Of a stretch of 39,104 nucleotides of DNA, positions 14,781 to 31,946 are shown piece after piece. Position numbers and translations under genes: made by a program. The stretch lies in IMG/VR virus record IMGVR_UViG_3300025383_000049, positions 1 through 39,104 of that record. The stretch is one strand, 5' to 3'. This stretch comes from a virus. Numbering within the stretch: position 1 is the stretch's first letter; the number at the start of each line of letters is the position of its first letter. Below the pieces are notes generated by a model that had not been told where the DNA came from, did no database searches, and was given only the letters and a program-made list of their open reading frames with translations.

Positions 14781-17135
14781 TTACTTTTCAATTGCGTGTA
14801 GTTTTCTTAATACGCTCATCATTGAATCATCAGCTACACTTGGTTTTACACTTGTGTGAGGTAATGTTGTTTGATCACGTTTTGGCTTATTCAAACCACC
14901 ACTGATTACTTTAGTCATGAAGTCCATATCTTGTGTGAATTGAGCATCTGTACCTTTGCCTGTTCTGTCTGAACCTGCTTGGTTAGCCCATTCATCTAAT
15001 TTTTCAGATTCGTCTGTTTCTTCTTCGTCTTTGGCTTCTTCTAAATCTTCTTCTTTAGCTTCTTCTAATTCTTCTTCATTAGTTGCGCCACCTGATTTAC
15101 TAGCTACCATGTTTTGAGCAGCATTACCTAATGTAGCGTTCATGGCATTGTCTTTACCACTGTCTGGAGGATTTTGAGATTGATCTTCTTCCATACCATC
15201 TTCAGCAACTTGATATGTCATTTGATCTTCAGTTTCTACTTCATCCATTCTGCCTGAACAAGCACATTCCATCATGCCACATTCATTGCAACCTTCTTCG
15301 TGTTCATGGTCATGTTTTTCATCTTCGTAATCACCATGATCAGTGCTATGACCTGTCATTTTTTTAATTAACGACATCATACCGTCATGATCATCAACTA
15401 CGTCAATTTTAGGAGCATTCATTGCTTTGACAACTTCAACTTCTTTTTCACCGTCTGCACTAGGTCCGTCATGACTAAACATGCCTAAACCCGCTTGCTT
15501 TACAATGCTCATTAATTCGTCAGCAGCTTGATCTGTAGCAGTTACAGTTACTGATTTAGGTTGACCTTCTTGATCACTCATTGCTACACTTAAACCTTCA
15601 TTAATTTCAGTGTATTCAGTTAATAAATTGTTTAATTGTGCATCCCATGATTCAAAAACGCTCATATCTGTTTCTAAAACATCTTTATCTTTGAATGTTT
15701 GACCAAATGCCTTAAATGTATCACCTGGTGTTGTTTGTGCTTTATGCTTCATCCATGATGTTTTATCCATCTCATCTACTGGCATTGTTTCTTCAAGTTC
15801 AGGTGTATGTGCACCAAAGCTTGCCATGTCATCTACTGTTGATGATGTTTCATCCATTACTCCATGATTTAAACCATGAATTGGACTCATTGTGCCATAA
15901 CATTCATCAAGACCTTGTTTGTAACCTTCGTGGTACATTCTATGTTCTTGTGAACCTTCTTCAAAAGGACAATTATAACCATGTTTAGCTAAAGCATGGG
16001 CTCTACCAAAGTGGTGTGCTGCCTTCATTTTGTTTTCATGGCTTTCTTTTAATTTCTTTTTCTTTGCTTTTTTCTTTTCATCGTACTCAATGTCTTTGGT
16101 AACTTTCTTTCCAGCTTTTTCAGCTTTCTTGTCGTCCTTACCTTTATGTTTCATATCGTACTCTAAATCTTTAGTTACTTTTTTACCAGCTTTTTCGGCT
16201 TTATTATCAGCCTTTGTGCGGCTTTCAAGTGTTGTTGTGCTTCTTCCCATACCTAATCCACCTCTACTTGTGCCGTCTACTCCGGCTTGTTGTAATGTTT
16301 CTGCTTCTTCGATACCCTTTTTTGTAAAGAGTGACTTAACTTTTTGACCAAGACTTTTCTTTTCAGGTTCGTCTAAAGGATTTCTTGGGGCACTTCCTTT
16401 AGGTGCTTTTGGCATTTTATGTGTTTCTGGTTGTACAACTTTAACGCCGTTTGGCAATTTGTAATCTTCTAGTGTTGTTTGACTACGACCGGCGCCTAAT
16501 CCTGCACCGTCAACATCCATGCCACCGGTATGAGGAATGTCTGCTTCTTCAATACCTTCTTTATGTAATTTGCTTAATGTTTGTGCTAAACGTGCTTGTT
16601 TACCTAACTTGCCTGAATCATGTTTGTGTTTTGCTGCAAATGCTGCTGTTGACATACCTGCTTTTTTTGCTTTAGCACTAAATGCACCAGGATGTTTAAT
16701 TGCTTTTTGAATCCATTTATCTTCATCCATTGATTCTTCAGATACAGGTTGTGTTGTTGAAGCATTAGCAGGTTGAGTTGTACTCTGTTGCTGTTGCTGT
16801 TGAGGAGTTACAACTGTAATCTTTTTATCTTGTGATAATTGTTTGATTGCCGGACCTAAAGTTTTTTGTAATTTAGGATCATTAATAGTTACTACACCTG
16901 CACTTGCTGGTTTATTGCTACCTTGTTGCTGTACAGGAACAGGAATTGGAGCATCTTCTGATAATCTTTGTTTTTTAATTTGATGAAAAACATCTTTAAG
17001 AGATAATCTACTAGCAGGTGCTACATCGACTGATTCTTTAAGAACTTTTTTACCTGCTTTAGGTGTTGTGTTGGTTTCCTTGATAGGCTTATTTTGCACT
17101 TCAGAAAACTTTTCTAACATTTTTTTCATATCCAT
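14781..17135 (-). CDS. Large charged mosaic protein with RMF-like and Cys-cluster segments
   Basis: A 784-aa Lys/Glu-rich protein of unknown function. In order: a basic, Gln/Pro-rich N-terminus; a KHPGAFSAKAKKAGMSTAAF helix motif (about 144-163) of a type seen in other phage proteins; two related segments, GLGAGRSQTTLE and GLGMGRSTTTLE; a duplicated KAEKAGKKVTKD block; a segment HFGRAHALAKHGYNCPF ... MYHEGYKQGLDECYG (about 372-413) that resembles ribosome modulation factor; a His/Glu-rich cysteine cluster GCNECGMMECAC (about 609-620); and a strongly acidic C-terminal region rich in EEE. It could be an internal head or scaffold-like protein judging from its position beside packaging genes, but this is unproven. 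An AAAGGA ribosome site precedes the ATG. Confidence 0.75.
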   Translation of the reverse strand: MDMKKMLEKFSEVQNKPIKETNTTPKAGKKVLKESVDVAPASRLSLKDVFHQIKKQRLSEDAPIPVPVQQQGSNKPASAGVVTINDPKLQKTLGPAIKQLSQDKKITVVTPQQQQQQSTTQPANASTTQPVSEESMDEDKWIQKAIKHPGAFSAKAKKAGMSTAAFAAKHKHDSGKLGKQARLAQTLSKLHKEGIEEADIPHTGGMDVDGAGLGAGRSQTTLEDYKLPNGVKVVQPETHKMPKAPKGSAPRNPLDEPEKKSLGQKVKSLFTKKGIEEAETLQQAGVDGTSRGGLGMGRSTTTLESRTKADNKAEKAGKKVTKDLEYDMKHKGKDDKKAEKAGKKVTKDIEYDEKKKAKKKKLKESHENKMKAAHHFGRAHALAKHGYNCPFEEGSQEHRMYHEGYKQGLDECYGTMSPIHGLNHGVMDETSSTVDDMASFGAHTPELEETMPVDEMDKTSWMKHKAQTTPGDTFKAFGQTFKDKDVLETDMSVFESWDAQLNNLLTEYTEINEGLSVAMSDQEGQPKSVTVTATDQAADELMSIVKQAGLGMFSHDGPSADGEKEVEVVKAMNAPKIDVVDDHDGMMSLIKKMTGHSTDHGDYEDEKHDHEHEEGCNECGMMECACSGRMDEVETEDQMTYQVAEDGMEEDQSQNPPDSGKDNAMNATLGNAAQNMVASKSGGATNEEELEEAKEEDLEEAKDEEETDESEKLDEWANQAGSDRTGKGTDAQFTQDMDFMTKVISGGLNKPKRDQTTLPHTSVKPSVADDSMMSVLRKLHAIEK

Positions 17136-25827: not shown

Positions 25828-26697
25828 ATGAATTATAGAGAAGCAGGATTATATTGGATACATCTAGCTGCACATACTGACCCTATGACACAGGGTTACA
25901 TAGGAGTTTCTAAATATCCTGAAGGAAGAATGTCTACCCATTTAAGACGCGCATCAGAAAATAGACATCACAATATTAATCTAATTGAAGCAATTAAAAC
26001 TTTTGGTAAAAAAAAATTAATATGCGAAGTTTTAGTATATGGTTCTGAGGATTATTGTTATACTTTAGAACATGAGTATAGACCAGTTAAGAATTTAGGA
26101 TGGAATATTGCTGAAGGTGGTAAAATGGGGGCAGGACCCAAATTTGGTGTACCCAAAAATAGAGAAAAAATCGAGGCTCGTAGAGAAGCAAAAAGAAAAC
26201 AAGATGAAGAAAGGCAACGTAGGATTGAGGAAGGAAAACCTACCCCTGACGATATTATTTTTTGTAAAAAATTAAAAGAAAAATTAGAGTTGAACAAAAA
26301 AATAGAATTAGGAATTTCTTTAAACGAACCCATACCTGATAGAGTAATTTATTTCAGACCTATTTGCAAAAAATGTAATAAAAATTATAGTGCCATAAAT
26401 TATAAAAAAGACGGTATAACTCATTATCGCAGCGTTTGTGATGAGTGTGGCAGTAAGAAAGCTAAAAACAAAAATAGAGTAGCCAACTGGGAGAAAAGCG
26501 GCTATAAAAAGAAAACTGTGTGTGACAGTTGCGGATTTAGAAGTTTATATCCATCACAAATGACGATATTCCATATAGATGGAAATTTAAAAAATATATC
26601 ATTGAGTAATTTAAGAACTATTTGCTTAAATTGTGTAGAAGTAGTTAAGCGTAAAGAATTAACGTGGAAGCGTGGAGACTTGACTATTGATTACTGA
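25828..26697 (+). CDS. GIY-YIG endonuclease fused to HNH-like zinc domain
   Basis: A 289-aa stand-alone nuclease. The N-terminus is a GIY-YIG variant: GLYWI at 7-11, GYIG at 23-26, catalytic-type Arg34, and a LEHEY segment carrying the metal-binding Glu about residue 79, then GWNIAEGG. A Lys/Glu-rich helical linker follows. The C-terminal about 110 residues hold paired CxxC motifs (CKKC, CDEC, CDSC, CLNC) around FHIDGNLKNISLSNLRTIC, which resembles a ββα-metal HNH core with the last His replaced. It is inserted between gp18 and the dNMP kinase on the opposite strand, typical of mobile endonucleases, and overlaps the kinase 3' end by 39 nt. Confidence 0.82.
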   Translation: MNYREAGLYWIHLAAHTDPMTQGYIGVSKYPEGRMSTHLRRASENRHHNINLIEAIKTFGKKKLICEVLVYGSEDYCYTLEHEYRPVKNLGWNIAEGGKMGAGPKFGVPKNREKIEARREAKRKQDEERQRRIEEGKPTPDDIIFCKKLKEKLELNKKIELGISLNEPIPDRVIYFRPICKKCNKNYSAINYKKDGITHYRSVCDECGSKKAKNKNRVANWEKSGYKKKTVCDSCGFRSLYPSQMTIFHIDGNLKNISLSNLRTICLNCVEVVKRKELTWKRGDLTIDY

Positions 26698-27309
26698 TTC
26701 TAATTGTTTATGTAGATAATCAATAGTACCTGTATTGTCTAAGTGATAATCATAATCTAATCCAACACTGCTGTACTCACTAGGATGCACTTTAAAGACT
26801 TCTTCAAGTGCTTGAATCATTTGTTGTGGATATTCACTGCCGTTGTTAAGTTTCTCAGCGTAAGTCACCCATTCAGGTTCTGTGCCACGATGTGTACGCA
26901 TAGTTATGCCACCTATGTTTTTAATGGCATTAAGTTCATTTGGAAAACGACAATCAGTAATTACAATATCTTCATTAAGACTGCGTAGTTTATTTTCTAA
27001 ACTAGCGATCCAAATATCTTGATGAAATCCTTGACGACAGACTTCGGTGCCCCAGTATTGTAATATCCATCTTGGGGTAAGATTTGGCATGTTTAATCTA
27101 TTAGCCCACCAAGTGTCAACTTGCTCTCGCCATTCACGACTGTGTTTAGTTGAACCTTCTAATAACTCACGGTCCCAACCAAATATAATACTAATTGCGT
27201 CTTTTAAACTTGCTGCGAAACTAAGTCGTTTAAAGCCATGAACCGTACAAAGATAATCTGCGGCTGTATCTTTGCCACTACCGATGAAACCACACACACC
27301 GACAATCAT
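26659..27309 (-). CDS. 1: Deoxynucleoside monophosphate kinase, gp1-like
   Basis: A 216-aa kinase of the T4 gp1 family, which phosphorylates dNMPs to dNDPs for phage DNA synthesis. P-loop GFIGSGKDT is at residues 7-15; FKRLSFAASLKDAI, then RWILQYWGTEVCRQGF and EDIVITDCRFPNELNAIK are family signatures, the last with the DxRFxNE motif. Length is near that of T4 gp1 (241 aa). It may be translationally coupled to the preceding zinc-knuckle frame through ATGA. Its last 13 codons overlap the convergent nuclease gene. Confidence 0.88.
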   Translation of the reverse strand: MIVGVCGFIGSGKDTAADYLCTVHGFKRLSFAASLKDAISIIFGWDRELLEGSTKHSREWREQVDTWWANRLNMPNLTPRWILQYWGTEVCRQGFHQDIWIASLENKLRSLNEDIVITDCRFPNELNAIKNIGGITMRTHRGTEPEWVTYAEKLNNGSEYPQQMIQALEEVFKVHPSEYSSVGLDYDYHLDNTGTIDYLHKQLESVINSQVSTLPR

Positions 27310-28806: not shown

Positions 28807-29433
28807 ATGTTAATAAAAGACATAGAAGAAGAACTAACCAGAAAAGATATATCCAAGTATATGAAAGATTTGGGTTGGACTAAACTTGGTTCTGGAAATT
28901 ATGGGGTAGTTTACGGCAAAAAAGATCATAACATGGTGGTTAAAATATTAGTATCAAAATACAATAACGATTCTATTCAATCGGCAGCAGAAAGTTTACA
29001 AGACAAATTTTTAAAATTTATAATTAAAAATCCTAATATTCATTATCCAAAATTCTATCAAACTAAAGCGGGAAATATAGCAGGACAACATTTCAAAATG
29101 TATGAAATGGAAAGGTTAAAAAAACTCAGCCCAATAGAAGATTATGTTATAGGTTATATGGGCCAGTTAGCAGATTATGGTTATAGTCTTGAACAAATAT
29201 ATAATCACATACTTAGACAATTACACCCCGATGATGATATTTCAGTTATGAAATATATTAAAGATTATAATTATTTTAAAACTAAATTTCAATCATTATA
29301 CAAAGCTATGGAGAAATTAATCGCCGGCGCAAATAAACTAGGTGTCGTTACTGATATTGCAGGCGATTATTATACCAACGTAATGAAGAGAGATGACGGA
29401 ACCTTTGTAATTATGGATCCTTGGGCCGCATAA
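28807..29433 (+). CDS. Protein-kinase-like protein with shortened C-lobe
   Basis: A 208-aa protein with kinase-fold signs: glycine loop LGSGNYGVVYG (27-37), VVKIL with Lys46 in the ATP-lysine position, a hinge-like YEMERLKKLS (about 99-108), and at the end GVVTDIAGDYYTNVMKRDDG then TFVIMDPW. The D...N and DPW (204-206) can be aligned with the catalytic-loop Asn and the DFG metal-binding motif, though spacing is not canonical and no HRD is present. The chain stops two residues after DPW, so the activation segment and C-lobe are absent. It could be a minimal kinase, AMPylase-like or pseudokinase. A late box ends 7 nt before the ATG. Confidence 0.68.
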   Translation: MLIKDIEEELTRKDISKYMKDLGWTKLGSGNYGVVYGKKDHNMVVKILVSKYNNDSIQSAAESLQDKFLKFIIKNPNIHYPKFYQTKAGNIAGQHFKMYEMERLKKLSPIEDYVIGYMGQLADYGYSLEQIYNHILRQLHPDDDISVMKYIKDYNYFKTKFQSLYKAMEKLIAGANKLGVVTDIAGDYYTNVMKRDDGTFVIMDPWAA

Positions 29434-29434
29434 A

Positions 29435-29884
29435 TCAAAGATCATTCTCTTTACGATTCTCACTATGATATACGTCAAAACTGCCACCGGGATAACGGCT
29501 TTCAAGTTTACGAACATTCTCAGCAATAACTTCTTGAGGGTCAAGATTTAAACTGCGACAGCAATTAATCCAATACCAAATCACATCGCCTAGTTCACGT
29601 TTTAAATGTACAAGTGTATGCTCATCAAGCATCTTACCTTGAAATAATATCTTTTTACAGATTTCCATAAACTCGCCGCTTTCGCTGCACAAGCCCATTG
29701 CGCCTGTTATAAACAGTGGCACGTTTAATTGTGGACCATGCATGTATTCGCCATTGGCGCCAAAGCCTTCCCAATTAGCATCTAGTCTGTCTAAACGAGT
29801 CATAAACTCTGTTAAGTCATTACTAGTCTCACTAGTTACGGCTCCAACAAAATCTTCGTACTTTTGTAAATCAATATCTTTCAT
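29435..29884 (-). CDS. mazG: MazG-like nucleotide pyrophosphohydrolase
   Basis: A 149-aa all-alpha NTP pyrophosphohydrolase. The metal-binding motif is GLCSESGEFMEICKK (E68, E71, E74) with ELGD (E97, D100) on the next helix; the phage-typical ending NVRKLESRYPGGSFD follows. Phage MazG enzymes clear nucleotides or alter alarmone signals of the host. It is the last gene of an early operon and starts inside the stop of the RMF-like gene (ATGA). It ends one base from the convergent kinase-like gene. Confidence 0.9.
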   Translation of the reverse strand: MKDIDLQKYEDFVGAVTSETSNDLTEFMTRLDRLDANWEGFGANGEYMHGPQLNVPLFITGAMGLCSESGEFMEICKKILFQGKMLDEHTLVHLKRELGDVIWYWINCCRSLNLDPQEVIAENVRKLESRYPGGSFDVYHSENRKENDL

Positions 29885-30060
29885 TTCTTTTTCCTTTTTG
29901 TGTTTTTGTAATCATGAAAACCTTCATACCAATCTTTAGAATTTTGTGTATCTTCTTTACTTGGTCTTGCTTTATCATAAGGGTTATAGGGAATAAAAGA
30001 TGCAGTTCTTTTAGCCCAATTATAACCCTCTAGATATGCTTGTGATTTTTCTTTTGCCAT
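29881..30060 (-). CDS. Small RMF-like protein
   Basis: A 59-aa basic protein: QAYLEGYNWAKRTASF, then IPYNPYDKARP and SKDWYEGFHDYKN. The layout A-x-x-x-G, an x-PY segment, then W-x-x-G resembles ribosome modulation factor (E. coli RMF: AHQRGYQAG, MCPYQ, WLGGWREA), which dimerises and inactivates ribosomes. The cysteine of the CPY motif is absent. The ATG shares one base with the stop of the 376-aa gene (TAATG) and its stop overlaps mazG (ATGA), so all three are translationally coupled behind a perfect sigma70 promoter. The resemblance is by eye. Confidence 0.68.
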   Translation of the reverse strand: MAKEKSQAYLEGYNWAKRTASFIPYNPYDKARPSKEDTQNSKDWYEGFHDYKNTKRKKK

Positions 30061-31190
30061 TAAAATGCCTTTAATATAATCATATTTTCATTAAAGCGAC
30101 CTTTTGGTGTAGTCGCAAGTGCTTTAATATCTTTAAAGAATTTACGTGCAGCAGGCTTGCTACCCATAATCTCTTTGATTTGTGTTTCGGGTTTACGTAG
30201 TGTTTTAGTTTCACTTTCTTTTGTGTCAAAGCCAAGCAATAGATTACCTTTAACGGTAAACTCTTTACTATAGCTATCAGCGATAAAGTGATGTAGTTTG
30301 CGTTTAGCAGTGTCATAAACCCAAGCCTCACTTGCACCAATTAGTTTTACTGGATTGACACTATTAAGTTCAAGTTTGGTTTTAGTATCTTTGTATGTTT
30401 TAAGATACTTTAACTTACTCACACGCTTTTCGGGCGGTACTGCCTTTTTAGCACGTGGGGCTTTGTTAGTTTTCTTAACACTGACATAAGCGTTAAGGTC
30501 ACTAATGATTTGTTCGCAATACTTAATTGCGTTTTTAATTTGGGTCTTGCCCAAATTATTGTAACCTTCAACTAAATCTTTGTCTTTACCTTTAAGTAAT
30601 TCATTGTATTCATCTAAACGATCTTGCCATGCTTTAACTAACATTGGCACATGTTGTGGAAGTATGTTACGTTTAGATAATTCTTCAACGACTTTACTTT
30701 CAAAATCTTTTGGATAGCCGTTAGTGAAAAATTCGTCAAAGTAACCTTCAAGTTCGCCACCTGCTTCCAATGTACGATCACGCATAATCTCTTGTACATT
30801 GGGTCGATTTGGTTTTTCTTCATCAGTAGTGTCAACAGCAACAGTATCCATTAGTCGATTGATTTCAACATCAAGCCCTGATTTGTGCTGCTCACTTAAT
30901 GTAAGCCCACGCAATGACATACGAGCCATAAAGCCTGTAGTTGGGTACACAATACTGTCACTTACTTTACGAAAACGTTTAGCGTCTTTGTCACGCCCGT
31001 TATGTTCCAAATATTGCAATAACAATTCCTTACTTTCTTTGTTTGTAAAAAAGTAATTGTACCAATTTAATGCCTTGATCACTGCAAATTGGTATTCGCT
31101 CTCACTGGGCTGTTTGTCAAATTTGGGTTCAGTACCCAAATATTTGGCATCGTTTTGAGATACCTTAAGTTCTTTAATGTCAGACTTCAT
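30060..31190 (-). CDS. Early-expressed protein of unknown function
   Basis: A 376-aa basic, largely helical soluble protein. The first half has SESEYQFAVIKALNWYNYFF and KDAKRFRKVSDSIVYPTTGF; a coiled region about 190-240; then a basic KKTNKAPRAKKAVPPEKR linker and a C-terminal domain (EAWVYDTAKRKLHHFIADSY, then VKGNLLLGFDTKESETKTLR). I do not recognise a family, though similar proteins seem to occur in environmental T4-like phages. A perfect-consensus sigma70 promoter and a GGAG ribosome site precede it, so it is an early gene, coupled to RMF-like and mazG. Confidence 0.7.
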   Translation of the reverse strand: MKSDIKELKVSQNDAKYLGTEPKFDKQPSESEYQFAVIKALNWYNYFFTNKESKELLLQYLEHNGRDKDAKRFRKVSDSIVYPTTGFMARMSLRGLTLSEQHKSGLDVEINRLMDTVAVDTTDEEKPNRPNVQEIMRDRTLEAGGELEGYFDEFFTNGYPKDFESKVVEELSKRNILPQHVPMLVKAWQDRLDEYNELLKGKDKDLVEGYNNLGKTQIKNAIKYCEQIISDLNAYVSVKKTNKAPRAKKAVPPEKRVSKLKYLKTYKDTKTKLELNSVNPVKLIGASEAWVYDTAKRKLHHFIADSYSKEFTVKGNLLLGFDTKESETKTLRKPETQIKEIMGSKPAARKFFKDIKALATTPKGRFNENMIILKAF

Positions 31191-31226: not shown

Positions 31227-31255
31227 ATTATATACGATTTTTGGGCATTTGTCAA
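31227..31255 (-). promoter_or_regulatory. Consensus sigma70 early promoter
   Basis: On minus, TTGACA (31255-31250), 17-nt spacer, TATAAT (31232-31227): full consensus. The leader of about 30 nt holds a GGAG ribosome site before the ATG at 31190. Confidence 0.88.
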
Positions 31256-31292: not shown

Positions 31293-31946
31293 ATGTTTAC
31301 TGATTCTAAATATAAAAAATGGTACTTCTCTATTATCGAGAATGCAAAAAATAGACCTGTGGTTGGTTACACCGAGCGCCATCATATTTTGCCTAAATGT
31401 TTAGGTGGAAAAGACACCGATGATAATTTAGTAAATCTCACAGCTAGAGAACATTTTATATGCCATTGGTTATTAACAAAAATGGTCACCGAAACCAAAT
31501 CAAAATATCAGCTATGGAATGCATTTAGTTGTATGCTGTACAGAGAAAGACCGGGCCAAGATAGATATAAAGTATCAGGTAAGATTTTTGAATGTATTAA
31601 AATTGCCGGCGCTAAAATAAAAAGTGAAAAATTCAAGGGTGAGAATAATCCAATGTTTGGGAAACGAGGATCGTTAAATCCAAATTTTGGAAAGAAATGG
31701 ACAGAGGAGCATAGAGTAAATGCTAGTATTTCTCATTTGGGACAAACAAGAACAATAGAATCTAGAAAAAAACAATCTGAAAAGACCAAAGGGCGCAAAC
31801 AAACTATAGAGCATATAAACAAACGTTCTAGGTCAGGAGAAGAGAATCATATGTATGGTAAAAAATTAAGTCCTGAAACAATTGCAAAAAGAACTGCTAC
31901 GTTAAAGGCAAATAAATTGGCTAAAAAACTAGCCGTAGGAGTTTAA
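31293..31946 (+). CDS. HNH homing endonuclease with NUMOD3-type repeats
   Basis: A 217-aa mobile nuclease. The HNH core is YTERHHILPKCLGGKDTDDN followed by LVNLTAREHFICHWLL, as in T4-like SegH/Mob enzymes. Two DNA-binding NUMOD3-type repeats follow: GENNPMFGKRGSLNPNFGKK and GEENHMYGKKLSPET, then a basic tail. I start at the ATG at 31293; longer in-frame starts would run through the promoter region. It lies immediately before gp14, and gp14's ribosome site is inside its last codons, so the two are probably co-transcribed. Confidence 0.88.
   Translation: MFTDSKYKKWYFSIIENAKNRPVVGYTERHHILPKCLGGKDTDDNLVNLTAREHFICHWLLTKMVTETKSKYQLWNAFSCMLYRERPGQDRYKVSGKIFECIKIAGAKIKSEKFKGENNPMFGKRGSLNPNFGKKWTEEHRVNASISHLGQTRTIESRKKQSEKTKGRKQTIEHINKRSRSGEENHMYGKKLSPETIAKRTATLKANKLAKKLAVGV

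Follow-up and report, generated by a model that had tools for sequence, protein, structure and literature searches.

Proteins resembling ribosome modulation factor (RMF) are already recognized in bacteriophages: NCBIfam describes them in two models, Rmf_CrpP_fam (NF041886) and Rmf_like_phage (NF041887), and two Rmf-like candidates have been reported from phage Milano (PMC6588377). These Rmf/CrpP-fold proteins are 45–65 aa long, with a predicted helix-loop-helix structure and the motif order EGY ... (N/C)PY ... W-x-x-G(F/Y/W), and their genes often lie in dense runs of small genes with overlapping ends. We found Rmf-like proteins in phages of Caulobacter, Serratia, Burkholderia, Pseudomonas, Vibrio, Rhodobacter, Klebsiella, Kosakonia and Streptomyces; examples of the fold are a 65-aa protein of Caulobacter phage Cr30, PS2_033 of Serratia phage PS2, Burkholderia phage BcepSauron_332, and a protein from an IMG/VR contig (L163). 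A limited literature search found no paper in which any phage Rmf-like protein had been assayed. In Streptomyces and Arthrobacter phages (L113–L116 and L275) the Rmf/CrpP-fold gene lies directly 3' of the gene for the capsid maturation protease (or a MuF-like protein), and in phage Ignacio it also precedes the scaffold gene. Ribosome hibernation is difficult to reconcile with such a head-morphogenesis context.

The sequence analysed here (the window) is the whole 39,104-nucleotide stretch of IMG/VR record IMGVR_UViG_3300025383_000049 and covers 39 kb of the genome of a T4-like phage; the tail sheath encoded in it has matches in PA5oct-type and other T4-like phages. It encodes a 59-aa protein, MAKEKSQAYLEGYNWAKRTASFIPYNPYDKARPSKEDTQNSKDWYEGFHDYKNTKRKKK, in the middle of a three-gene unit (Table 1). 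The original prediction regarded this protein as RMF-like and considered RMF-type hibernation unusual in a phage; given a family model named after phages and genes of this kind in many of them, the claim of rarity does not hold.

Table 1. Features of the 59-aa gene, its surroundings and the corresponding slot in related phages
Feature	Position	Strand	Remarks
sigma70-type promoter of the three-gene unit, TTGACA-17-TATAAT	31227..31255	-	conserved among relatives
Gene 1 of the unit, 376-aa conserved phage protein, function unassigned	30060..31190	-	phrog_11903, E 5e-64
Stop/start overlap TAATG, 376-aa gene / 59-aa gene	30058..30062	-	1 base common; TAA stop 30062-30060, ATG starts 30060
59-aa accessory protein	29881..30060	-	pI 9.6; predicted two-helix hairpin, lysine-rich tail
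Start/stop overlap ATGA, 59-aa gene / mazG	29881..29884	-	4 bases common; TGA stop 29883-29881, ATG at 29884
Gene 3 of the unit, MazG-like nucleotide pyrophosphohydrolase (149 aa)	29435..29884	-	PF03819 36.3 bits (cut-off 22); phrog_229, E 4e-39
HNH/NUMOD3 homing endonuclease	31293..31946	+	
Protein kinase-like gene	28807..29433	+	phrog_15752, E 2.4e-8
dNMP kinase	26659..27309		
GIY-YIG-like endonuclease candidate	25828..26697	+	by eye
PF04957-like segment in 784-aa protein (14781..17135)	15906..16031	-	11.8 bits, E 0.012, below cut-off
64–66 aa slot protein (SFDPLEKRMETMMTVIDTAI...) before mazG, in relatives	L016 5109-5303; L022 5101-5301; L023 3771-3971; others		

Several other genes of the window deserve mention. 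The homing endonuclease gene separates the three-gene unit from the structural genes, and a second endonuclease candidate occurs at 25828. Between a neck gene and mazG, on the strand opposite to the latter, lies a gene whose product is similar to the T7 gp0.7-type protein kinase, an inhibitor of host transcription. The only PF04957-like match in the window is a segment, AAHHFGRAHALAKHGYNCPFEEGSQEHRMYHEGYKQGLDEC, embedded in a 784-aa protein; it is conserved in L262–L266, including a 364-kb contig, and a stronger embedded copy (26 bits) was found in a 1339-aa frame of the relative L111.

The 59-aa frame overlaps both of its neighbours exactly as originally described, and ribosome-binding sites of the AAGG type are visible by eye at a good distance 5' of its own start and of the mazG start. 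One could suspect a spurious open frame that merely fills a gap, as its homologs are confined to one lineage and its third-position G+C is low (0.17); this is hardly credible, however, for a frame that fits precisely between its neighbours, shares a stop/start overlap with each of them and comes with ribosome-binding sites, and that is missing as a whole unit in relatives, i.e. was inserted as a gene. On these sequence grounds we regard the 59-aa frame as a genuine small gene.

The perfect promoter that had been assigned to the unit is also real. TTGACA-17-TATAAT agrees with the consensus at all 12 positions, as no other site in the window does (Markov expectation 0.13), and precedes the first gene of the unit, 1.1 kb upstream of the 59-aa frame, which comes second. 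Of 13 relatives, 12 keep it in place with 10–12 of the 12 consensus bases and the remaining one (L014) with 9, at 25–36 bases ahead of the start, though the 376-aa proteins of these phages are only ~52–55% identical. A different signal marks other genes: 18 of the 25 VTAAATA sites in the window, which resemble the T4 late promoter TATAAATA, fall in the 90 bases that precede gene starts, a zone that covers ~4% of positions, and the genes that follow them are mostly structural. Our scan of the window found no such late-promoter-like site upstream of the genes of the three-gene unit. Together with the conserved sigma70 promoter, this makes early transcription by the host polymerase a reasonable assumption; the unit is thus probably expressed early, as had been proposed, with the timing deduced from these promoter patterns.

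As for the partners of the 59-aa gene in this unit, homologs of the 376-aa protein (phrog_11903) are present in many T4-like and giant phages, and the product of the third gene possesses a MazG domain by the PF03819 threshold; the coupling to mazG that had been claimed stands, by virtue of the ATGA overlap. The original prediction went on to suggest that the module alters the ribosome and the nucleotide or alarmone state of the host. The alarmone idea is weakened, because the cyanophage MazG that was assayed in purified form neither bound nor hydrolyzed (p)ppGpp and preferred dGTP and dCTP (PMC6850273). A dNMP kinase gene near the MazG unit accords with a role in the nucleotide pool.

Comparison with related phages reveals that the space between the phrog_11903 gene and mazG is a variable slot. 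In L031 (whose MazG is 93% identical), L052 and the more distant L014 nothing lies between the two genes; the flanks in L031 and L052 are the same as those around the 59-aa gene, and in the DNA alignment the latter appears as a clean insertion between conserved flanks. In the other relatives the same slot is mostly filled by a 'SFDPLEKRMETMM' protein of 64–66 aa, by inspection unrelated in sequence to the 59-aa protein; L015 and L028 contain a second small frame beside it, and L032 has a second, similar copy of it. The 59-aa gene of phage Cr30 at the matching position is likewise unrelated to our frame. The slot bears on the suggestion that the 59-aa protein partners or regulates the neighbouring MazG-like enzyme, with translational coupling reflecting a complex. 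We consider this improbable: the 4-base overlap with mazG would fit it, but densely packed phage operons have overlaps of this kind as a rule, and MazG evidently needs no 59-aa protein in the closest relatives, where mazG follows straight after the 376-aa gene.

The 59-aa gene itself was found in only three other IMG/VR contigs, where the encoded protein is identical, and searches of annotated phages, plasmids and GTDB genomes detected no homolog of the protein. TBLASTN hits in FLC8/FLC6 (E 3) fall within a 302-aa protein that has no RMF match and were dropped. We found no divergent homolog in phage records, plasmids, GTDB or IMG/VR against which to compare the motif residues. Judging from this distribution, the 59-aa gene is an accessory gene confined to one lineage.

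The case for RMF rested on the layout A8-x-x-x-G12 ... P27Y28 ... W44-x-x-G47. The motifs are indeed present in this order, and in its loose form the A-x-x-x-G/PY/W-x-x-G layout arises in only 2 per 10,000 composition-preserving shuffles, but the spacing of RMF (14 residues from G to P and 9 from PY to W) is missed: the 59-aa frame has 15 and 16, compared with 13–14 and 9–12 in 22 RMF and Rmf-like sequences. It shares with RMF (PF04957; E. coli Rmf, PDB 6h4n and 2jrm) small size, basic character and motif order, and lacks the N-terminal MKRQKRDRL block. The search with the Pfam RMF profile, named beforehand as the test that could refute RMF identity, gave no match; no Pfam family matched the 59-aa protein at E ≤ 10, nor did any NCBIfam model, those for Rmf/CrpP and PRK14563 included, and membership via PHROGs was likewise rejected. 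This test has power, since PF04957 detects E. coli RMF (79.6 bits) as well as eight small phage Rmf-like proteins (24–36 bits). A BLASTP comparison with E. coli RMF produced no alignment at E ≤ 100, and a profile built from four bacterial RMFs alone gave the 59-aa frame 0.3 bits, a score reached by 3,508 of 20,000 shuffles. We conclude from these comparisons that the 59-aa protein is not RMF. A true phage RMF, which would bind the 3' region of 16S rRNA, dimerize 70S ribosomes and so idle those of the host early in infection, would agree with the motif order, the size, the basic charge and the early unit, yet it is very improbable when PF04957 and PRK14563 detect other phage Rmf-like proteins and fail here, and when the bacterial profile places the frame inside the shuffle range and BLASTP yields no alignment; a general early shutdown of translation would presumably hurt the phage too.

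Remote kinship to the wider phage Rmf/CrpP-fold group is a different matter. The 59-aa frame resembles these proteins in size, predicted helix-loop-helix structure, motif order and the overlapping ends of its gene, and it is 38% identical to the L163 protein over 45 aa; it differs from them in its spacing and in falling below every curated cut-off (28 bits for NF041886 and 40 bits for NF041887, with no match at E ≤ 10), cut-offs that some PF04957-matching relatives do not reach either. With phage Rmf/CrpP profiles whose members had not been picked by likeness to it, the frame scored 11.9–13.2 bits, a level that 5 of 20,000 shuffles attained; the alignment inserts some six residues ahead of the W motif, and HHalign gave probabilities of 37–75%. 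Ranked against the 27,287 frames of the fetched loci, the 59-aa frame came directly behind the family proteins, though only at E 0.13–0.29; family members left out one at a time scored at least 20 bits against the family profile. In the reverse direction, a phmmer search of the same frames had an Rmf-like protein as its top non-self match (E 0.026), with several more Rmf-like proteins among the matches that followed. A further profile gave higher values (15.8–17 bits, 0 of 20,000 shuffles, HHalign 84–89%), which we discount because six of its members had been picked up by a pattern that was itself derived from the 59-aa frame. The resemblance exceeds that of nearly all shuffles but, at these E-values, falls short of proof; remote kinship is possible on this evidence.

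It is nevertheless quite conceivable, if somewhat short of an even chance, that the protein is an unrelated small early product, a lineage-specific orphan for host takeover whose likeness to Rmf motifs is accidental. The failure to match any curated family, the deviant spacing, the lack of relatives beyond one near-identical lineage and the unrelated small proteins in the same slot of other phages all fit such an orphan, whereas the frame outscores 99.97% of shuffles with the unselected profiles and Rmf-like proteins are prominent among its top non-self matches.

Structure prediction agrees with the helix-loop-helix outline. The predicted secondary structure of the 59-aa protein has this arrangement, as has that of the Rmf-like control; AlphaFold2 run without relatives placed helices at residues 4–20 and 35–58 (pLDDT 74, pTM 0.29). 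A Foldseek search with this model against the PDB and viral models returned nothing, which says little, because the RMF-family control L163 (53 aa, above the PF04957 cut-off, two predicted helices) retrieved nothing either. A sequence search of the PDB yielded chance matches only, to yeast Tsa2.

We tentatively favor, at a probability of roughly 0.45, an early gene in a variable slot whose product is a divergent Rmf/CrpP-fold relative and acts as a host-directed accessory protein. On the sequence evidence, the gene was gained by this T4-like lineage between the phrog_11903 gene and mazG, is read with them by the host sigma70 polymerase, and its translation is coupled to that of both neighbours. 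The product is predicted to be a short basic helix-loop-helix protein, most likely a very divergent relative of the fold group with a PY-to-W loop about 6 residues longer, and it probably binds some host macromolecule early in infection; its target may be the ribosome or RNA, which the motif and the lysine-rich tail would place first among the candidates. The more specific proposal, that this long-loop variant is made early together with a nucleotide pyrophosphohydrolase and alters host ribosome activity during takeover, seems to us very unlikely.

What we describe is thus an ordinary accessory gene whose remote link to the Rmf/CrpP fold is unproven. If the kinship is true, the 59-aa protein would be one more, unusually spaced member of a widespread phage Rmf-like group; the wider point is that Rmf-like proteins recur across unrelated phages.
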